In this document: positions 42,440 through 63,963 of the stretch, piece after piece
How positions within the stretch are numbered: position 1 is the stretch's first letter
How the letters are laid out: each line of letters starts with the position of its first letter
The notes under the pieces: generated by a model
What the model saw: the letters and a program-made list of their open reading frames with translations, nothing else
What the model was told of the DNA's origin: nothing
The model's database searches: none
Translations under genes and position numbers: made by a program
DNA from: Mesorhizobium sp. 65-26
GTDB taxonomy: Bacteria; Pseudomonadota; Alphaproteobacteria; Rhizobiales; Rhizobiaceae
Reading direction: 5' to 3'
Assembly: GCA_001899205.1 (NCBI GenBank)
Contig: MKVL01000015.1
Span: 26,269 to 90,268, forward strand
Length of the DNA: 64,000 nucleotides

Positions 42440-43129
42440 TCACCGGGCAAAGGTCAGATTTACGTTGCTGTTGACATTGGTGACGGTGGCGTTGTCTGCA
42501 GGGGTTGGGAATATTGCCAAATGACCCTGAGAGCATGAAAAGGTTACTGTATCACCTTTCTTGATTTTTGAGAAAATCTCTGTGAAAGGTCCGGTGGGCA
42601 ACGTCTTTTTCTGAGATGAATTCAAGCTGATTGAACAGTTTGGCGAAACGTTCGATGCTTGAACTGTTCCGGAAACAGAAAGCTTCCACGTCGCTTTCCT
42701 AGGCTTGGTTGGGGGTGATACCGAGATAACCCAGTCGGTATCATAGTCGGAACTTGCGCCGGTTCCATTGCCGACACCTGAACGCAAGTCGCTTTTGGCG
42801 TTGATCGTCAATCCGATTGTCCAAGGGACCTTTTTTGACGACGTCACTTTGCATGACGTATCAAGGTATTCGTAACTATGAGACCCACCGTTACTTGGGT
42901 AACCCTGAGAAGCTATCGATCCGTCAGAATTCACGTAATCGTGCTTCGATCCTTCGACAATTTTCCATGTTTGATCTAGAGTTTGATCGTGAGGTGGCGC
43001 ACCATTATCGGGCAAAGCCACAGAATGCACTTTCACATGCAGAGACCCACAAGCATCTGCGGTGAATCCAGAGCTCGTAGATAGTAAAAGAATCAAGGCA
43101 CAACTGGCACTGACGGCACTCCTATGCAT
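42440..43129 (-). CDS. secreted protein of unknown function in an AT-rich islet
   Basis: Predicted 229-residue protein. A Sec signal peptide (SAVSASCALILLLSTSSGFT, cleavage near FTADA-CG) is followed by a mature domain rich in Ser, Thr, Asn and Lys with four well-spaced cysteines (ACGSL, TSCKV, NCSIS, FSCSQ). Patterns such as WKLSVSGTVQASNVSP and VTNVNSNVNLTFAR suggest an all-beta fold. An RBS-like GAGGAGGGGGAAATGC lies at the start. Base composition is visibly lower in GC than both flanks and codon use is unlike neighbours, which points to horizontal acquisition. I do not recognise the family. Confidence 0.65.
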   Translation of the reverse strand: MHRSAVSASCALILLLSTSSGFTADACGSLHVKVHSVALPDNGAPPHDQTLDQTWKIVEGSKHDYVNSDGSIASQGYPSNGGSHSYEYLDTSCKVTSSKKVPWTIGLTINAKSDLRSGVGNGTGASSDYDTDWVISVSPPTKPRKATWKLSVSGTVQASNVSPNCSISLNSSQKKTLPTGPFTEIFSKIKKGDTVTFSCSQGHLAIFPTPADNATVTNVNSNVNLTFAR

Positions 43130-53216: not shown

Positions 53217-55022
<1,806 letters not shown>

Positions 55023-55276
55023 GGCGCGCGCTTTAGCAGGGGCGCAAAGCGGCGGCAAGCCGCGCGGCGCAACGGGTTCGGCACCGATTCATTAAACTTT
55101 GACCAATCCCGTTAGAGCATCGTTTGCGCCCGACATGGTAAATGCCCGCGTCAGTAAGAGCAATTCCGGCGGAGATACCAAGCACTCTCCTCAGGGAAGT
55201 TGCCCAAAAACAAAGAGATAGGGGCAATGAGGCGATTGGGGTCGCCGGACTTGCCCATGACTTCTGGGGGTTCGGA

Positions 55277-56413
55277 ATGTGCTTTCCAGGCAAAGGTTTC
55301 CTGCGTGCTCGCGACGGTTCCCTGGCGCCGGTCTTCGCCATGGCGCTGCTACCCATGGTGGCCGTGGTCGGCTTCTCCATGGATTACACATCGGCGGTTT
55401 CGACCCGCGCCTCGATGCAGAACGCGCTCGACGCGGCGGTGCTGGCCGTCACCACGCTGCCGCCCACGGCGACGGACACCGACCGCCTGCAGAAGCTGAG
55501 GGACTCCTTCGTCGCCAATGGCGGCCAGGGCACGGTCAACCTCGACAGTTTCCAGGTCGATACTTTCGGCACGGCGCGCGCCAACGTTTCGGCCAGCTAC
55601 GCCATGCCGACCAATTTCATGCAGATCGCCCGCGTGCCGACGGTGTCGATCGGCGTCACCGCCGCCGTGCGCAAGACGCCGTCGCTTGTGCAGGCGACGT
55701 TCAAGGTCGACAAGGTGTCGGGCTACTGGAACAAGACGGTCACGCTCTACGGCACGAAATTCGGCGCGACCTCGCCGCAGAAGCTGATGACGGCCAGCTA
55801 CGTCTTCTCGTCCTATGGCTTCACCTACACGGTGGGGTCCGGCAACAAGGCCAAGTCCTACACCACCAATGAAGCGAAGGGTTACGGCACGACGACCATT
55901 TCCCTGGTCAACGGCTCGACCTCTACGGTGGTGCAGACGCAGACCTGCACCACAGCCGGCTCGACGACCAACTTCGTCAACCCGCCGACCGACGCGGTCG
56001 TAACCTCGCAATATGACAGCAACAGCAAGCAGACGGTCTATTTCAAGACCACTTGCGCTACCACAACCGTGCCGGCCAACGGCACCGGCGCCGCCGTCGA
56101 CGTGAGCCAGATGAACAGTCTCTATCTGCAGATGGACGTCACCACCGGCAACACGGCGACGTTCAAGTCGAACGATCCCACGACGTCGAACCATCTCTAC
56201 CTGGGCCTTTCGCCGACCCCTTTGACCGAGGTTGCCTCCGGCCAGACGGTCGACATCTTCACTGTCGTGCCTTGCTCGCAGACCAGCTACCAGGCCTGGG
56301 AGGACGGCGGCAATTCGCTTCCCGCGGCCTACACGAACGCCGACTTCTTCTACAACGTCACCGGCAAGTGCGATTTCAACCAGCGCCCGTCGGAGACGAT
56401 GCTGACGCAGTAG
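55277..56413 (+). CDS. TadE/TadG-like pilus-assembly-associated membrane protein
   Basis: Predicted 378-residue protein starting MCFPGKGFLRARDGSLAPVF. The N-terminal segment DGSLAPVFAMALLPMVAVVG with FSMDYTSAVSTRASMQNALD is the Flp pilus TadE/G-type pattern: a short basic cytoplasmic tail, one transmembrane helix, then an amphipathic helix. The rest is extracytoplasmic, Thr/Ser-rich with several cysteines and no vWA motif that I can see. GGGGG lies 7-8 nt before the ATG at 55277. No tad locus is adjacent, so it is an orphan. Role in adhesion is inferred only. Confidence 0.75.
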   Translation: MCFPGKGFLRARDGSLAPVFAMALLPMVAVVGFSMDYTSAVSTRASMQNALDAAVLAVTTLPPTATDTDRLQKLRDSFVANGGQGTVNLDSFQVDTFGTARANVSASYAMPTNFMQIARVPTVSIGVTAAVRKTPSLVQATFKVDKVSGYWNKTVTLYGTKFGATSPQKLMTASYVFSSYGFTYTVGSGNKAKSYTTNEAKGYGTTTISLVNGSTSTVVQTQTCTTAGSTTNFVNPPTDAVVTSQYDSNSKQTVYFKTTCATTTVPANGTGAAVDVSQMNSLYLQMDVTTGNTATFKSNDPTTSNHLYLGLSPTPLTEVASGQTVDIFTVVPCSQTSYQAWEDGGNSLPAAYTNADFFYNVTGKCDFNQRPSETMLTQ

Positions 56414-56489
56414 CGGCGGGGACGGTGACGGACTCAGGCTTCGTCTCCACGACCTCCCCACAAGGGACTTGGCAATCACGCAAGGGGCA

Positions 56490-56605
56490 CGACCCCCACT
56501 CCGTCCGCTGCGCGGACACCTCTCCCCCGAACGACGGGGAGAGGAAAGGCGCGAGCTTGCCGGGCTAGGCTCCCTTCCTCTCCCTCCGCGGAGGGCAGGG
56601 CCATC
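56490..56605 (+). repeat. dispersed repeat R1, variant copy 4
   Basis: Begins CCCCCACTCCGTCCGCTGCG, a variant of the R1 start, has the CTCTCCCCC/GGGGAGAGG hairpin, and ends early at CTCCCTCCGCGGAGG. It follows the TadG-like gene. Confidence 0.7.
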
Positions 56606-56640
56606 GCATATGGAAATTTGGAGCGTGTCAGCGCGACAGG

Positions 56641-56780
56641 TACCCCCACCCTACCCTCCCCACAAGGGGGAGGGGATTCCCGCAGGTGCCGATCTTCGCA
56701 AACTGTCGACGTCTCAGCGTCGAAAGATGGGCGCGCGGCAGCGTTCCCTCCCCCTTGTGGGGAGGGTTAGGGTGGGGGTC
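56641..56780. repeat. long inverted repeat R2, copy 2
   Basis: Arms CCCCCACCCTACCCTCCCC (56642) and GGGGAGGGTTAGGGTGGGGG (56759) with CACAAGG hairpins, and the spacer wording GATTCCCGCAGGTGCCGATC shared with 48308. It directly follows an R1 copy, as at 48098-48453, so R1 and R2 travel as a tandem block. The remainder of the 56414-56888 gap holds the DUF1223 promoter. Confidence 0.8.
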
Positions 56781-56888
56781 TGCGCCGACACCCCCAATCA
56801 CAAACCGGTGAAGATGTAACGACGTGTCCGTCGGGGACGAAGCAACGGGCATGGCCGGCGACCGGCGCCCGTTGCAACGGAGGATCCG

Positions 56889-57590
56889 ATGACACGATCG
56901 AGAACAGGCAGGCTTGGGGCGCTGGCGGGCGCCGCGCTGCTTGCCTTCGCGGCGACGGGCGCCGTCGCCGGCCAGCCGCTCACCGTGGTCGAACTGTTCA
57001 CCAGCCAGGGTTGCTCGTCCTGCCCGCCGGCCAACGCCAACCTCATCAAGGTCCGTCAGCAGCCGGGCGTGCTGGCGCTGTCTTTCAACGTCACCTACTG
57101 GGACTATCTCGGCTGGAAGGACACGTTCGGCCGGCCCGAATTCACGCAGCGCCAGGTCGATTACGAGCCCGCGCTCGGCCATGACGGGCCGTTCACGCCG
57201 CAGGTCGTGGTCAACGGCCATGCCGACGCCGTCGGCGCCCGGCCGGGCGAGATCGAGACGCTGATCGCCGCCAGCCATCCGACGCCGGGCCCGGCGCTCG
57301 TGCTCGGCCAGGACAAGGTCTCGATCGGCGCCGGCGCGGCGCCGGGCGGCCATGCCGACATCTGGCTGGTGCGCTACGACAGGCATGTCGTGGAGGTGCC
57401 GGTGGGGCGCGGCGAGAACACCGGTCGCACCTTGCCGCACGCCAATGTCGTCCATTCGCTGCAGCGGCTGGGCGCCTGGGCCGGCGCCGCCACCACCTTG
57501 CCGCTTCCCGAAGCCCCGGGCGGCCTCGCCACCGCCGTTCTGGTGCAGACGCCGGGCGGCGGCCCGATCCTCGCCGCCGCCACCGACTGA
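56889..57590 (+). CDS. DUF1223 domain protein, secreted thioredoxin-like
   Basis: Predicted 233-residue exported protein. A Sec signal peptide (LGALAGAALLAFAATGAVAG, residues about 8-28) is followed by VVELFTSQGCSSCPPANANL, where CSSC is a thioredoxin-like redox motif, then LSFNVTYWDYLGWKDTFGRP and QVVVNGHADAVGAR. This order defines DUF1223, whose function is not established but is expected to be periplasmic and redox-related. GGAGGATCCG precedes the ATG. Together with the Met-rich peptide and MsrA downstream it forms a plus-strand run with an oxidative-stress flavour. Confidence 0.9.
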   Translation: MTRSRTGRLGALAGAALLAFAATGAVAGQPLTVVELFTSQGCSSCPPANANLIKVRQQPGVLALSFNVTYWDYLGWKDTFGRPEFTQRQVDYEPALGHDGPFTPQVVVNGHADAVGARPGEIETLIAASHPTPGPALVLGQDKVSIGAGAAPGGHADIWLVRYDRHVVEVPVGRGENTGRTLPHANVVHSLQRLGAWAGAATTLPLPEAPGGLATAVLVQTPGGGPILAAATD

Positions 57591-57671: not shown

Positions 57672-57917
57672 ATGACCAGATTCCCCGTCCTCGCCGCGCT
57701 CGCGCTCGCCCTCGGCTCGACGGCGCTCGCCGCCGGCGCGCGTGCCGACGACGCGACCGGCGCGATGAAGCCGGCAATGGCCACCGACGCGATGAAGCCG
57801 GCGGCGAACGCCATGAAACCGGCGACGGATGCGATGAAGCCGGCCAATGCCATGAAGCCGGCGGATGCGATGAAGTCCGCCGACGCCATGAAGCCGGCCG
57901 ACACCACGGCGAACTGA
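57672..57917 (+). CDS. small exported Met-rich repeat protein (AMKPA repeats)
   Basis: An 81-residue protein with a signal peptide (FPVLAALALALGSTALAAGA, cleavage near ARADD) followed by about 55 residues made of imperfect A-M-K-P-A units such as DAMKPANAMKPADAM. Eight methionines are spaced five to seven residues apart, and the Lys and Asp repeat with them. AGGAGACGATC precedes the ATG. It resembles the known pentapeptide Met-x-Lys-Asp-x repeat proteins (TIGR02953) in design. It lies 96 nt upstream of an exported MsrA, suggesting a methionine sink for oxidants in the periplasm. It could be intrinsically disordered. Confidence 0.8.
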   Translation: MTRFPVLAALALALGSTALAAGARADDATGAMKPAMATDAMKPAANAMKPATDAMKPANAMKPADAMKSADAMKPADTTAN

Positions 57918-58013
57918 AGATTGGCGCCGACTCCATCGCCCCCGCACGGCAAAGTGAGAAACCCGACGGGGGCTTCCGTCGTATAGTCCAGGAACCATGA
58001 AAGGAGATCAGAC

Positions 58014-58754
58014 ATGACCGGCATCGAGCACAAGGCCGCGCGGCGATCGCCATTCCTCATCAAGGGCGCGCTTGCCGCGCTGGTCGTCGCGGCGGCGGCC
58101 GCCGCGCTATGGCAGACGCCGGCGATCTCGGCCGAGGACGCGGTGACGATCCCGCCGCCGGCGGTCGACGAGAAGCCCGTGGCCGGCAGCGAAAAGGCTG
58201 TCTTCGCCGGCGGCTGCTTCTGGGGCGTGCAGGGCGTGTTCCAGCATGTCAGGGGCGTCGAGCGCGCCGTCTCCGGCTACACGGGCGGCGGCAAGGACGA
58301 CGCCGTCTACGAGACGGTCGGCACCGGCCGCACCGGCCACGCGGAATCCGTCGAGGTCACCTACGACCCGTCGAAGGTCACCTACGGCCAATTGCTGCAG
58401 GTCTATTTCTCGGTCGCGCACAACCCGACGGAGCTCAACTACCAGGGTCCCGACGAGGGCACGCAGTATCGCTCGACGATCTTCGCCGAGAATCCCGAGC
58501 AGAAGAAGCTCGCCGAGAGCTACATCGCCCAGCTCGACAAGGCCAAGGTGTTTTCGAAGCCGATCGTCACCACGCTGGAGACCGGCAAGACCTTCTATCC
58601 GGCCGAGGACTATCACCAGGATTTCCTGACGCTGAACCCGACCTATCCCTACATCGTCTACAACGACCTGCCCAAGATCGAGAACCTGAAGACGATGTTC
58701 CCCAAGCTCTACAGCGAAAAGCCGGTCCTGGTGCTGGCCTCGAGCAAGAGCTAG
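58014..58754 (+). CDS. msrA: peptide methionine sulfoxide reductase MsrA, exported
   Basis: Predicted 246-residue enzyme that reduces Met-S-sulfoxide. An N-terminal hydrophobic segment (FLIKGALAALVVAAAAAALW, residues about 14-33, then AISAEDA) indicates export or membrane anchoring. The catalytic motif is AVFAGGCFWGVQGVFQHV. SGYTGGGKDDAVYETVGTGR, HAESVEVTYDPSKVTYGQLL and LNYQGPDEGTQYRSTIF complete the domain. The C-terminal cysteines used by E. coli MsrA for resolution are absent, so another protein must recycle it. AAAGGAGATC precedes the ATG. The substrate may be the Met-rich peptide encoded just upstream. Confidence 0.93.
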   Translation: MTGIEHKAARRSPFLIKGALAALVVAAAAAALWQTPAISAEDAVTIPPPAVDEKPVAGSEKAVFAGGCFWGVQGVFQHVRGVERAVSGYTGGGKDDAVYETVGTGRTGHAESVEVTYDPSKVTYGQLLQVYFSVAHNPTELNYQGPDEGTQYRSTIFAENPEQKKLAESYIAQLDKAKVFSKPIVTTLETGKTFYPAEDYHQDFLTLNPTYPYIVYNDLPKIENLKTMFPKLYSEKPVLVLASSKS

Positions 58755-58855
58755 GGCGCCGTAGCTGCTGGCGTCCCGCCGTGGTTTGACGAAGGTGCCT
58801 CAGCCTTTGTGGACAAGGAACTCACATGGCGGCGGCGATAACTCCAGCGTCGCAT

Positions 58856-58983
58856 ACCCCCACCCCCAAGCCCTCCCCACAAGGGGAGGGGGACTCGCCG
58901 GCCGCTGTGCCGCAAGTACCGCCTGAAGACATGTCCTCGGCGTTGGCGCCTCCCCCTTGTGGGGAGGGGCTAGGGGTGGGGGT
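58856..58983. repeat. long inverted repeat R2, copy 3
   Basis: Arms CCCCCACCCCCAAGCCCTCC (58857) and GGGGAGGGGCTAGGGGTGGG (58959) flank a spacer of about 90 bp, with CCACAAGG hairpins beside each arm. It lies between msrA and the R1 copy in reverse orientation. Together these fill the 58755-59220 gap. Confidence 0.75.
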
Positions 58984-59029
58984 CCGCGCCGGGCAAAACG
59001 CTTTCCGATTTCCCAATGCTGTTGCCCTG

Positions 59030-59135
59030 CCCTCCGGAGGGAGAGGAAAGGAGCCCGGTTTGGCAGGCTCGCTCCCTTCCTCTCCCCCGTCGTTCGGGGG
59101 AGAGGTGGTCGGCAAGGCCGACCGGAGTGGGGGTC
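59030..59135 (-). repeat. dispersed repeat R1, copy 5 in reverse orientation
   Basis: Reads GGCCGACCGGAGTGGGGGTC at its right end, the complement of the R1 start, with the CTCTCCCCCGT...GGGGGAGAGG hairpin in the middle. It is the only inverted copy in the window. Confidence 0.75.
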
Positions 59136-59220
59136 GTGCTCTTACGCGATTGCCCCCTTCAAGGGAAAGGTATTCCCGCCGCGCCTGTCCTCACGGCGAC
59201 GTCCCGACGTCAGGAGATGT

Positions 59221-60681
59221 TCACTGCGTCGCCGGTGTCGAGGCCAAAGTCTCGCCGTCCCAGCCGCCGCCCAGCGCCTGGAACAGGCTGGTGGCCGCCA
59301 GCAGCCGGTTGAGCCGCACCTGGACCAGTGTCGACTGCGCGCTGAACAGCGTCTGCTCCGTCTGCAGCACGCTGACCAGATTGGCGGTGCCGCCCTTGAG
59401 CTGCTCCTCGGCGACCTGAAAACCCTTGCGTGAATTGGCCACCACTTCGCCCTGCAGGCGCTGCTGCAGCGTCGTTTGCTCCAGCGCCACCAGCGCGATC
59501 TCGACATCGGCGAAGCCCGACAGCACCGCCTTGCGGTAGGCCTGCAGGCTCTGCAACTGTGCCCCCTTGGCCTGCTTGAGCTGGTTCTGCAACTGGAAGC
59601 CGTCGAAGATCGGCTGGCTGAGGCCCGCCACCAGCGTGTAATACCAGGCGCCCGGCCCGAACAGCGCGGCCAGCGCCTTGCTCTGGAAGCCGGCGCTGCC
59701 GGTGAGCTCGATCTGCGGGAAGAACGCGCCGCGCGCCGCCTCGACGCTGAAGCTGGAGGCCGCGAGCTGCGCTTCCGCCTCGCGTATGTCGGGGCGCCTG
59801 GCCAAGAGTTCGGACGGCAGGCCGGGCGTCACGCGCGGCACGGAGATGCGCGACAGGCCGCGCGCGTCGATACGGAAGCCGGCCGGCACCTTGGCCAGCA
59901 GGACGGCGAGCGCGGCGATGTTCTGCCGCCGCGTTACCTCCAGCGGCGGGATGGAGGCGCGCACCTGCGCCACCAGCGCGGCCTGCTGGGAAACGTCGAG
60001 CTGCGAGGCGGTGCCGGCGGTGAACTGCTTCTGGATCAGGCCCTGGATGCGGCTCGCCGCGGCAAGGTTGTCGCGCGCCACGGCAAGCTGGTCCTGCGCG
60101 GCGAGCACCTGGAAATAGGTGTTGGCGACCGACACGACGGTGCTCAGCATCACCACCTCGCGGTTGAAGCGGCTGGCCAGCGCGGTCTTCTCCGCGGCGT
60201 AGAGCGTGGCGCGGTTCTTGCCCCAGAAGTCCAGCATGTAGCTGGCCGACAGGCCGAGGCCGAACTGCGGTTGGCCGCTGCCGGCCTGGCGCTGGGTCGC
60301 GGCGCTGCCTGAACCGGAGAGGCTGGGCAGCAGCGGCGCGCCGGCAATGCCCGCCTGCGCGTCGGCCTGGATGATCTGCGCCATGGCGACGGCGATGTCG
60401 AGATTGGCGGCGCGCGCCTGCTCGACCAGGCTGGTCAGCTCCGGCGAGCCGAAGCCGCGCCACCATTCCGGCCTCGGCTCGGCCGCCTTCGCCGCGCGCG
60501 GCGCGTTGCCGTATTTGGCCGGCACGTCGAGCATGGCGTCGGGATGCTCGGTGTTGAGCACGCAGCCCGTCAGGCCGAGCGAAACCATGCAGGCCATGGC
60601 CGTCCGCGCCAGGCGCGGCATCGCCGGGCGCCGGCCCGGCGGCCTCTGTTTCATTCGCATGCAACCCTCTCCTTCGCGCAT
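59221..60681 (-). CDS. RND efflux outer-membrane lipoprotein (NodT/OprM family)
   Basis: Predicted 486-residue outer-membrane channel (479 if it starts at ATG 60660, MRMKQRPPG). The lipoprotein signal ends in the lipobox LGLTGC. Two OEP repeats follow: SLVEQARAANLDIAVAMAQI, SASYMLDFWGKNRATLYAAE and QLDVSQQAALVAQVR in the first; LLARRPDIREAEAQLAAS, PIFDGFQLQNQLKQAK and EEQLKGGTANLVSVLQTEQ in the second. It is 3 nt downstream of the RND pump gene on the same strand, so it is the exit duct of that tripartite pump. Confidence 0.94.
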   Translation of the reverse strand: MREGEGCMRMKQRPPGRRPAMPRLARTAMACMVSLGLTGCVLNTEHPDAMLDVPAKYGNAPRAAKAAEPRPEWWRGFGSPELTSLVEQARAANLDIAVAMAQIIQADAQAGIAGAPLLPSLSGSGSAATQRQAGSGQPQFGLGLSASYMLDFWGKNRATLYAAEKTALASRFNREVVMLSTVVSVANTYFQVLAAQDQLAVARDNLAAASRIQGLIQKQFTAGTASQLDVSQQAALVAQVRASIPPLEVTRRQNIAALAVLLAKVPAGFRIDARGLSRISVPRVTPGLPSELLARRPDIREAEAQLAASSFSVEAARGAFFPQIELTGSAGFQSKALAALFGPGAWYYTLVAGLSQPIFDGFQLQNQLKQAKGAQLQSLQAYRKAVLSGFADVEIALVALEQTTLQQRLQGEVVANSRKGFQVAEEQLKGGTANLVSVLQTEQTLFSAQSTLVQVRLNRLLAATSLFQALGGGWDGETLASTPATQ

Positions 60682-60684
60682 GGC

Positions 60685-63600
60685 CTATTCCCCCGGCACC
60701 GGGCTCGCTCGCGGCGCGGACCGGGTCCTGCGCCTGCCCCAGCCCAGCCGGAGGCGGTCGATATAGATGTAGATGACAGGCGTCGTGTAGAGCGTCAGCA
60801 TCTGGCTGAGCACCAGCCCGCCGACGATCGAGATGCCCAGCGGCTGGCGGATCTCGCCGCCCTCGCCGAGGCCGAGGGCCAGCGGCACGGCGCCCAGCAG
60901 CGCCGCCATGGTCGTCATCATGATCGGCCGGAAGCGCAGGATGCAGGCCTGGAAGATGGCTTCCTCGGGCGCCATGTTGCCGCGCCGCTCGGCGTCGAGC
61001 GCGAAGTCGATCATCATGATGGCGTTCTTCTTGACGATGCCGATCAGCAGGATGACGCCGATCAGCGCCATGATGCTGAACTCGATGTTCGCCGCCGACA
61101 GCGCCAGCAGCGCGCCCACGCCGGCCGAGGGCAGCGTCGACAGGATGGTGAGCGGATGAGCGTAGCTCTCATAGAGGATGCCGAGCACGGCGTAGACGGC
61201 GATCAGCGCCGCCAGGATCAGCATCGGCTGGTTGGACAGCGTGTCCTGGAACACCCTTGCCGTGCCGGCGAAGGAACCGTGGATGGTGGTCGGCATGCCG
61301 ATGCGATCCGAGGCCTGGGCGATCGCGTCCACCGCGTCGCTCAGCGCCATGCCCGGCGCGAGGTTGAACGACAGGGTGGTGGCGACGAACAGTCCCTGGT
61401 GGTTGATCGACAGCGGCGTCGAGCCCGGCCCGAAGCGCGCCACGGAGGCAAGCGGCACCATCGTCTCCGTGCCGGTGCTCACCGCCGCGCCAGTGGAGGC
61501 GGAGCTCTTGCCGGTGCTGGCGATCGAGTTGTTGGCCTGGTTGCGCGCCGCGTCCGAGGCGACCGCCGAGGCGCTGGTCGACTTGCCCGCCGAGGCGAAG
61601 GTGCCGGATACAGCGTTCGAGGCCTGCGAGCCGCCCACCGAGCCGCCCGAGGTGCTGACATAGACCTGGCTCAGCGTTTCCGGGTTCTGCCAGTATTGCG
61701 GCGCCGCCTCCATCACCACATGGTACTGGTTGCGCGCCACGTAGATGGTCGACACCTGGCGCTGGCCGAAGGCGTCGTAGAGCGTGTTGTCGATCTGGCC
61801 GACAGTGATGCCAAGGCGCGCCGCGGCGTCGCGGTCGATGACGACGTTGGCTTCCAGCCCCTTGTTCTGCTGGTCGCTGTTGACGTCGGTCAGGCGCGGG
61901 TCGCCCTGCAGCGCCGCCGCCAGCTTCGGCGCCCACTCCACGAGTTCGTCGAAACTGTCGCCCTGCAGCGTGTACTGGTACTGCGCGTTGGACTGCCGGC
62001 CGCCGACGCGGATGTCCTGCACCGATTGCAGGAACAACGTCGCGCCCGAGACCACCGACAGCGCGCCGCGCAGCCGCCCGATCACCTGGTCGGCGGAGAT
62101 CTTGCGCTCGGCGAGCGGCTTCAGCGACACGAACATGAAGCCGGAATTGGTCTGGCCGCCGCCGGTGAAGCCGACGGCCGTGTCGACGGCCGGATCGCGG
62201 CTGACGATGTCGGCGAACTGGCTGAGCTTCTGCGACATGGACTGGAAGGAGGTCGCCTGGTCCGCCTGGATCGAACCGGTGAGCCTGCCGGTGTCCTGCT
62301 GCGGGAAGAAGCCCTTGGGAATGGTGGCGTAGAGATGGAAGTTGAGGCAGAGGACGGCGAGCAGGATCGCCAGCACCAGCCGCGGATGCCGCAGCGCCGC
62401 GGCGAGCGAGCGCCGGTATCCGGCAAGCATCAGGTCGAAGGCCCGCTCGCTCGCCCGGTAGAGCCGGCCGCGGACGCGCTCACGGTGAGGGCGCAGGAAG
62501 ACGGCGCACATCATCGGCGTGGTGGTCAGCGAGACGACCAGCGAGACCAGGATGGCGGCCGACAGCGTCACCGCGAATTCGCGGAACAGCCGACCGACCA
62601 GGCCGCCCATCAGCAGGATGGGGATGAAGACGGCGATCAGCGACACGCTCATCGCCAGCACCGTGAAGCCGACTTCCCGGGCGCCCTCGATCGCCGCCCG
62701 CGTCGGCGGCATGCCGTCGGAGATGTGGCGGGAGATGTTCTCGAGCACGACGATGGCGTCGTCGACGACGAAGCCGGTGGCGATGGTCAGCGCCATCAGC
62801 GACAGGTTGTCGATCGAGAAGCCGAGCAGGTACATGATGCCAAGCGTGCCGACCAGCGACACCGGCACCGCCACCACGGGGATCAGCGTCGAGCGCGCGT
62901 CGCGCAGGAAGGCGAAGACGACCAGGATCACCAGGCCGATGGCGATCATCAGCGCCTGCTCGACCTCCTGCAGCGAGGCGCGGATGGTGGTCGAGCGGTC
63001 GTTGGCGAGGTTGATGTCGATGGCCGGCGAGACCGAGGCGCGCAGCGTCGGCAGCAGCGCCTTCACCCGGTCGACCGTGTCGATGATGTTGGCGTTGGGC
63101 GAGCGGTTGAGGATCACCAGCACCGCCGGCTTGCCGTTGGCGAGGCCGGCATTGCGGATGTTCTCGACCGAATCCGTCACCTCGCCGACATCGCTCAGCC
63201 GCACGGGGGCGCCGTTGCGGTAGGCGACGATCAGCGACCGGTAGTCCTTGGCCGCCGTCGCCTGGTCGTTGGCCAGGATCTGGTAGCGTTGCTGGCCGAC
63301 GTCGATCGCGCCCTTCGGGCTGTGCGCGTTGGCCGAGGCGAGCGCGGCGCGCACGTCCTCCAGGCCGATGCCGTATTTGTAGAGCGCCGGCGGCACCAGT
63401 TCGACCCGCACCGCCGGCAGCGAGGAGCCGCCGACCGACACCTCGCCGACGCCGTCGACCTGTGACAGCTTCTGCGCCAGCACGGTGCTGGCGGCGTCGA
63501 AGATCTCGCCCTTGGACAGCGTGTCCGAGGTCAGCGCCAGGATGAGGATCGGAGCGTCGGCCGGGTTCACCTTGCGATAGGTCGGGTTGGAGCGCAGGCT

Positions 63601-63963
63601 CGACGGCAGGTCGGCGCGGGCGGCGTTGATCGCCGCCTGCACGTCGCGCGCGGCGCCGTCTATGTCGCGGTCGAGGCCGAACTGCAGCGTGATGCGCGCC
63701 GAGCCGACGCTGGAGGACGAGGTCATCTCGTTGACGTCGGCGATCTGGCCGAGATGCCGCTCCAGCGGGCTCGCCACCGTCTCTGCCACCACCTGCGGGC
63801 TGGCGCCGGGCAGGCTCGCCTGCACCGAGATGACGGGGTAGTCGACGGCCGGCAGCGGCGCCACCGGCAGCAGCGGAAACGCCACCAGCCCGGCCAGCAG
63901 CACGCCCAGCGTTAGGAGCGTCGTGGCTACCGGGCGGCGGATGAACGGGGTGGAGAGGTTCAT
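60685..63963 (-). CDS. RND family efflux permease (MdtC/AcrB-like)
   Basis: Predicted 1092-residue proton-driven inner-membrane pump. [20 protein letters not shown] at the start, [20 protein letters not shown] (TM4 with the relay Asp pair), [15 protein letters not shown] and [20 protein letters not shown] are characteristic; the order fits the MdtB/MdtC branch. An unusual Ser/Ala/Gly/Thr-rich insertion of about 60 residues lies near residues 771-831 in the second periplasmic loop ([20 protein letters not shown] and onward). The start overlaps the upstream gene's stop (ATGA). Drug or metabolite specificity is unknown. Confidence 0.93.

Follow-up and report, generated by a model that had tools for sequence, protein, structure and literature searches.

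We propose that three adjacent genes of Mesorhizobium sp. 65-26, which code for a DUF1223 protein, a methionine-repeat peptide and the methionine sulfoxide reductase MsrA, form an operon that acts as the effector arm of an ECF16-type SigF-NrsF oxidative-stress response and supplies a periplasmic methionine sink recycled by thiols. We put the probability of this reading at about 0.72. Judging from its sequence, the arrangement looks like an oxidant-sink module of the MrpX/BcrX type in which MsrA, and probably also MsrB, stands in place of MsrPQ. The evidence consists of gene content, linkage of the genes, constraint on the peptide and its family relation, together with the presence of a promoter motif, the linkage to sigF-nrsF in two lineages and the near-absence of MsrP.

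The list of open reading frames in the window (the whole stretch of 64,000 nucleotides that was analysed) bears out the initial annotation as to the existence and placement of the three genes (Table 1). Their order, with the DUF1223 gene first, the Met-repeat peptide second and a signal-bearing MsrA last, is also as described there, and it is conserved as a block across the genus. Signal peptides were assigned by visual inspection and from the conservation of N-termini, and on this reading of the N-termini the peptide, MsrA and DUF1223 are all predicted to be exported.

Table 1. Features at the Met-repeat peptide locus (positions in the window)
Feature	Position	Strand	Description
lepA	53217..55058	-	frame that we take to be lepA; conserved flank marking the locus, outside the system
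Tad-domain protein gene	55142..56413	+	between lepA and the operon; PF13400 35.3 bits; flank, not counted as part
ECF16/SigF-type promoter motif	56816..56841	+	GTAAC-N17-CGAA, 47 bp upstream of the start codon of DUF1223
DUF1223 gene	56889..57590	+	233 aa; thioredoxin-fold, signal sequence; Cys42 and Cys45 (CSSC) as the only cysteines; PF06764 198.5 bits (gathering cut-off 30.7); related to PDB 2axo
Met-repeat peptide gene	57672..57917	+	81 aa; signal sequence, AMKPA repeats; divergent relative of MXKDX/MrpX/BcrX
msrA	58014..58754	+	246 aa; signal-bearing one-cysteine peptide-methionine (S)-S-oxide reductase; TIGR00401 172.5 bits (cut-off 108.1), PF01625

As regards the surroundings, the Tad-domain gene is present in many relatives, though not in all, and the lepA flank also adjoins the exported MsrA in genome G028. 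The TolC/RND genes of the window (59221-63963) have no match in the block-bearing stretches of 11 relatives and are therefore not regarded as part of the operon. By eye, CCCTCCCCACAAGGGGGAGGG-like repeats are visible on both sides of the operon, at about 56460-56800 and 58830-59150.

The peptide begins with a Sec signal that runs, by eye, to ARA and is followed by a mature part of 56 residues. This mature part contains eight methionines (14%), spaced 4-7 residues apart, and neither cysteines nor aromatic residues, in agreement with the earlier description of an 81-residue AMKPA-repeat peptide with eight regularly spaced methionines. In 31 same-length ungapped pairs, pN/pS was 0.09 for the peptide, as compared with 0.12 for MsrA. 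This low ratio, together with the genus-wide conservation of the block, argues that the frame did not arise by chance, and we conclude from the substitution pattern that the repeat peptide is a real protein under strong protein-level constraint.

Across the genus, the mature part is 45-118 residues long and the copy number of the repeats differs between species. Peptide statistics were calculated for 111 of the 112 peptides, with that of G166 left out. Methionine makes up about 14.5% of the residues (range 7.6-20.3%, the lowest value coming from G003, whose peptide has a read-on tail). Nearly every KP is preceded by methionine (746 of 750), and fewer methionines are followed by KP (746 of 1157); methionine thus persists while its neighbours change. 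It is not the most conserved residue, as the residue change in close pairs amounts to 2.6% for Met, 0.4% for Pro and 4.0% for Ala.

At the same locus, other species carry a form of the peptide with two cysteines, often with MKKDE-type repeats; in 24 of 25 such peptides the two cysteines are 20 residues apart. This form connects the locus to the curated MXKDX family, TIGR02953 (cut-off 41 bits). We scanned 10 locus peptides of the genus, nine with cysteines and one (L016) without. Four scored over the cut-off (L102 47.9, L099 47.8, L019 48.1 and L108 41.4 bits), L106 was at the cut-off with 41.0 bits, L105, L127 and L128 were below it (25.0, 31.9 and 16.1 bits), and for L104 and the Cys-less L016 no match was found. 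The window peptide itself gave no match to TIGR02953 at E<=10 and matches no family, and its genome as a whole yielded no TIGR02953 match. Among the 13 genus genomes searched whole, G001 alone was over the cut-off. From these comparisons we take the window peptide to be orthologous, by its locus, to MXKDX members, with AMKPA as its repeat; by its own score it is not a member.

In a first sample, DUF1223, peptide and MsrA occurred in this order in 11 of 12 same-genus genomes. Extending the search to 119 genomes of the genus, we found the peptide in 112 of them, including M. ciceri WSM1271 and M. kowhaii, in each case upstream of an exported MsrA and in the same orientation. These counts are per genome, and the genomes share ancestry. 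Peptide profile A1 gave 112 matches; one of them, in G006, lies within a 533-aa frame of another protein and was not counted, and the peptide of G169, which the profile missed, was added by eye to the 111 others. Low-scoring second matches in large frames (G156, G182, G197, G211 and G239) were likewise excluded from the linkage count. In the 111 genomes, the gap between the peptide and MsrA matches was 111-1366 bp (median 265), the widest one being in G223, where a Tad-type gene lies in between.

Of the seven remaining genomes, four (G140, G183, G189 and G195) are also without an exported MsrA, two (G006 and G151) have MsrA and no peptide, and in G190 a contig end cuts the locus. The single-contig genome G005 (L016/L120), one of the 11 block-bearing genomes of the first sample, has an msrA split over two frames, which is either a pseudogene or a sequencing error. 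The initial annotation had expected all three genes to co-occur. For the peptide and MsrA this proved right, with all 112 linked genomes having an exported MsrA. DUF1223 did not turn out to be a fixed third gene: it precedes the peptide in 97 of the 119 genomes, and 13 of the 112 peptide-MsrA pairs have no adjoining DUF1223.

Upstream of the operon lies an exact match to GTAAC-N17-CGAA, a motif of which shuffled sequences lead one to expect 0.17 per window. It fits the SigF consensus of Caulobacter, GTAACC-N16-CGAA (PMC3511200), as well as the EcfF consensus of Bradyrhizobium (PMC3420878; here and below, papers are cited from excerpts of their text). The motif stands before the first gene of the block, i.e. 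DUF1223 or else the peptide, at all 110 readable peptide loci, with an N17 spacer in 107 and an N16 spacer in three. This count leaves out G141 and G146, where a contig end truncates the sequence. The motif is absent from the three MsrA copies that have no peptide (G006, G151 and the second copy of G180). The spacer centre varies freely among the 107 rows; the invariance of the nine motif bases follows from selecting the rows by that very pattern and is not evidence. The window's own genome holds 18 motif sites versus 36 for the reversed pattern, that is, the motif is not enriched genome-wide, and single sites are therefore weak. Another promoter-like match in the window (42869-42894, minus strand) lies inside an open reading frame and was taken as chance.

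NrsF (PF06532) was detected in 116 of the 119 genomes, and the three that are without it (G006, G140 and G151) are also without the peptide. In two lineages the regulators lie at the locus itself: in G169 and G178 the gene order is lepA, nrsF, sigF, followed by a divergent peptide and msrA, and in G169 the two regulators match the families Sigma70_r2/r4 and NrsF. The window's own genome has three NrsF matches. A sigF-nrsF pair is located elsewhere in it, not adjacent to the operon in the window, and a motif is found 10 bp before the sigF frame as called. Taken as a whole, these data predict that the operon is under SigF control.

The same motif was traced to the msrB genes, two of which are present in each of nine sampled genomes of the genus, one of them with a twin-arginine-like signal (by eye). 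In all eight NrsF-bearing genomes the motif precedes the gene for the exported MsrB; it is missing there in G006, which is without NrsF. A similar motif precedes the cytosolic MsrB gene in all nine genomes, G006 included, so that the motif is no proof of SigF control. In this cytosolic msrB motif (GTAAC-N17-CGAA at G000:C32:274590 and in eight other genomes) the spacer is partly conserved, and it may be read by another regulator. One more site of the form GTAAC-N17-CGAA ends 45 bp before the start of a second small signal-bearing Met-rich protein of the window's own genome (99 aa, 18 Met, 2 Cys; L254:1572-1868, in G000, contig C12 near 93424). It is possible that this protein is a second sink belonging to the same regulon.

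The DUF1223 protein scores 125 bits against the PDB 2axo sequence, and a thioredoxin-like fold is assigned to it by this relationship; DUF1223/2axo has been classed as thioredoxin-like (PMC3091736). Peptide-bearing loci without DUF1223 are those of G143, G147, G178, G179, G203, G206, G223, G224, G238, G240, G243, G244 and G169. In G141 and G146 an ortholog is placed on another contig, and many genomes encode a further, less similar DUF1223 (about 45% identity) elsewhere. It had been suggested that DUF1223 could be the reductant of the system; since 13 of 112 peptide-bearing genomes do not have it at the locus, an obligatory role of this kind is weakened and is not supported as stated. At 12 of these 13 loci the peptide is of the Cys-bearing form. 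We considered whether DUF1223 replaces the cysteine pair of the peptide and take this no further than an idea, as the MsrA tree (midpoint-rooted for drawing, with no ancestral form implied, and built without G005 and the second G180 copy) contains four supported independent contrasts, too few for significance.

The association of DUF1223 with the promoter motif extends beyond the genus. Among the best 80 DUF1223 loci from named genomes, the motif was found at most 350 bp upstream of the gene in 27 of the 30 whose product is at least 53% identical to the window protein (Mesorhizobium 14 of 14, others 13 of 16), in two of 10 at 48-53% identity and in none of the 40 with less than 48%. With the reversed pattern, none of these 80 loci has a site upstream of DUF1223, and 29 of the 33 motif sites in their DNA fall within the DUF1223 upstream windows. 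Rhizobium, Neorhizobium, Devosia, Chelatococcus and Methylopila are among the hosts of motif-bearing DUF1223 in this set, and in several of these hosts there is no MXKDX or Msr match within the stretch. Through these putative promoters, a DUF1223 subfamily is tied to the ECF16 response in Alphaproteobacteria.

In the open-licence papers that name DUF1223, none addresses its function, as judged by titles. We regard the protein as a candidate reductant of MsrA. A further-reaching proposal, which we offer tentatively and rate well below even odds, is that the ECF16/SigF response could have in DUF1223 a periplasmic thiol-redox protein of its own, acting as donor or disulfide partner for MsrA and, with the exported MsrB, recycling the secreted sink without molybdenum. 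In its boldest form, put forward purely as an idea, the cysteine pair found in the peptides of other lineages would have become dispensable once DUF1223 supplied one.

MsrA, whose N-terminal hydrophobic export signal was identified by eye, has one cysteine, C68, within GGCFWG, which is invariant in the 11 rows of alignment A2. The claim that the enzyme carries no resolving cysteines of its own is therefore upheld, and with a single cysteine it would need an outside thiol. MsrA enzymes reduce S-sulfoxides and MsrB enzymes R-sulfoxides, so the exported pair of MsrA and MsrB would cover both sulfoxide forms. Besides DUF1223, a DsbD/CcdA-thioredoxin route to the periplasmic MsrA is plausible. In G046 (L036 and L064:8113-10008) an exported MsrA adjoins a DsbD_TM-redoxin-thioredoxin fusion with a Met-rich stretch, which is a candidate electron donor for the periplasmic MsrA. 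G180 encodes a second exported MsrA (L239), 76% identical to that of the window, at which no peptide, DUF1223 or promoter motif was found.

MsrP scores over the cut-off in three of the 119 genus genomes (G140, G167 and G213) and does not do so in the window's own. In the other 116 genomes, the best matches to the MsrP profile reach about 74-104 bits and presumably represent another molybdoprotein. G140 has MsrP and is without the exported MsrA. In G183, G189 and G195, NrsF is present, the locus is absent and MsrP is not over the cut-off; MsrA and MsrP are thus not neat substitutes for one another.

We also looked at both partners outside the genus. An MsrA match is present in 115 of 121 genomes of the family, 16 of which, including the window's own genome and G012, belong to an upper score group of 280-507 bits. 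By eye, no MXKDX-type peptide lies within about 1.5 kb of MsrA in the 14 genomes of this group that come from other genera. TIGR02953 matches occur in 48 of 297 genomes of the order, and 27 of them are over the cut-off. Around 30 loci inspected with short flanks (L131 and L142-L170, three of them below the TIGR02953 cut-off), an MsrP-like gene was nearby in 10 cases, DUF1223 in three and MsrA in one.

Twenty wider stretches, 19 of them around TIGR02953 matches, some weak, gave a more varied picture, the partners being those among the matches listed. Signal-bearing MsrB and MsrA lie near the peptide in L175. In L180 (genome G506) there are genes for a cytochrome b561, for a molybdoprotein, for a signal-bearing MsrB and for an MsrA that shares 62% identity with that of the window. 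In L186 an MsrAB fusion is near the peptide, with response-regulator- and kinase-like genes in between (by eye), and in L191 it is a 381-aa MsrA-domain protein; these two are perhaps a two-component-regulated relative. Given MsrP-like, MsrA, MsrA plus MsrB and MsrAB neighbours, the MXKDX family therefore occurs with different repair enzymes. Ahead of the L180 stretch of G506 lies a DUF1223 gene (L164), and the combined stretch, with DUF1223, MXKDX peptide, cytochrome b561, MsrP-like protein, MsrA and MsrB, is apparently a fully equipped version.

The initial annotation had drawn an analogy with MrpX, which is now strengthened by the four of nine Cys-bearing orthologs over the TIGR02953 cut-off, by the ECF16-type promoter and by two lineages in which sigF-nrsF adjoins the locus. 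The reference system is SigF/NrsF - YedYZ - MrpX of Azospira suillum (Melnyk et al. 2015, via PMC8315932 and PMC4623255). Azospira and Mesorhizobium share a Met-rich periplasmic peptide (predicted in the latter), an ECF sigma/anti-sigma pair and an Msr partner. This partner is YedYZ, of the MsrPQ type, in Azospira, whereas in Mesorhizobium it is a thiol-dependent MsrA, with DUF1223 in front. In perchlorate reduction islands, msrA/msrB products are predicted to be exported, and mrpX and sigF/nrsF occur among these islands taken together (PMC4623255). The islands move horizontally, with yedYZ and mrpX named as key genes in the same paper, whereas the Mesorhizobium locus is chromosomal and extends across a genus most of whose genomes are without MsrP.

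The BcrS/AbcS - BcrXQP system of Brucella melitensis shares the ECF16 pair and the MXKDX peptide (PMC8315932). BcrX is described as belonging to the MXKDX proteins and as a homologue of the peptide from Azospira, induction by HOCl has been reported, and the sites before bcrX and bcrS, when counted from Table 1 of that paper, read GTAAC-N17-CGAA with the same spacing (PMC8315932). However, BcrX is cotranscribed with MsrQ/MsrP-type proteins, and neither msrA nor DUF1223 occurs anywhere in that paper. In Bradyrhizobium japonicum, the ECF16 sigma factor of the EcfF/OsrA system governs three Msr genes, one of them with a predicted periplasmic product, and a DsbD-like/thioredoxin pair was proposed as the electron route; MXKDX does not occur in that paper (PMC3420878). 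Both halves of the arrangement thus have a precedent, ECF16 with MXKDX and MsrPQ in Brucella and ECF16 with three Msr genes in Bradyrhizobium. An ECF sigma factor is also linked to thiol-type Msr under oxidant stress in Neisseria (PMC3420878) and Haemophilus (PMC7907618). Independent support from within the genus comes from M. huakuii 7653R, in which the four msr genes all went up with NaClO and msrA1 alone did so with H2O2 (PMC13272141). In Caulobacter, msrA homologs were unchanged under SigF (PMC3511200), and in S. meliloti neither H2O2 nor Cd nor chromate elicited a response of the ECF16 factor RpoE7 (PMC6180224), which argues against a simple carry-over from one species to another. None of the open-licence papers listed in our searches was recognisable as a description, in Mesorhizobium, of this peptide together with either MsrA or DUF1223.

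Other explanations of the locus have to be weighed against the sink. MsrA may be the working part, engaged in general envelope repair, with the peptide a minor or structural by-product that shares its promoter. This is what one might suppose from G006 and G151, which have MsrA without the peptide, and from the 14 other-genus genomes mentioned above. It accounts poorly for the constraint on the peptide, for the fact that readable loci have either both the peptide and the promoter motif or neither of them, and for the MXKDX peptides found elsewhere near MsrP-like, MsrA plus MsrB and MsrAB genes, and we consider it unlikely. A neutral low-complexity repeat frame beside an ordinary msrA is the least probable explanation and, in our opinion, nearly negligible. 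Low-complexity repeats often arise by replication slippage, and the copy number does differ between species, but neither observation explains the constraint, the conserved signal region, the motif at 110 of 110 loci or the relation to a curated family, TIGR02953.

Met-rich exported peptides can bind Cu(I), and the peptide might therefore be a periplasmic Cu(I)- or metal-binding protein or metal chaperone whose methionine ligands are guarded by MsrA. The window peptide has a weak CopL match, which at 13.1 bits is far below the cut-off of 40, and SigF of Caulobacter is reported to take part in a heavy-metal response (PMC3511200, PMC6180224). Against this stand the composition of the peptides, with three histidines and one aromatic residue in the 7790 mature residues of 111 peptides, and the constant partner gene, which is an Msr. 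Moreover, ECF16 systems that include a Met-rich peptide or Msr genes have been reported to answer HOCl, H2O2 or singlet oxygen (PMC8315932, PMC3420878). We judge the metal explanation to be somewhat less likely than the one centred on MsrA and retain the recycled methionine sink as the preferred reading.

The scheme that we infer for this sink involves export, SigF control, induction, oxidation of the peptide, its recycling by MsrA and MsrB and a role for DUF1223. A periplasmic oxidant, hypochlorite in the first place and perhaps H2O2 or singlet oxygen, would free SigF from the membrane-bound NrsF. SigF would then transcribe the operon from GTAAC-N17-CGAA and probably also the exported MsrB encoded elsewhere in the genome. 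Once secreted to the periplasm, the peptide would have its exposed methionines oxidised instead of those of envelope proteins, and the exported MsrA and MsrB would reduce its S- and R-sulfoxides, respectively. Recycling of the sink would thus rest on thiol chemistry and not on MsrPQ, the molybdenum/quinone route that has been proposed in Azospira and Brucella. The one-cysteine MsrA would draw on an outside thiol, for which DUF1223 is the local candidate.

If this reading is true, the known hypochlorite sink also exists in a form that does without molybdenum, and almost all genomes sampled from a genus of nitrogen-fixing plant symbionts carry it. The peptide would then be a module paired with differing repair enzymes, be it an MsrP-like protein, MsrA, MsrA with MsrB or MsrAB. 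DUF1223, so far uncharacterised, would gain a probable regulon and a function that can be put to the test, and the reductant of a one-cysteine periplasmic MsrA would become experimentally approachable in laboratory rhizobia.
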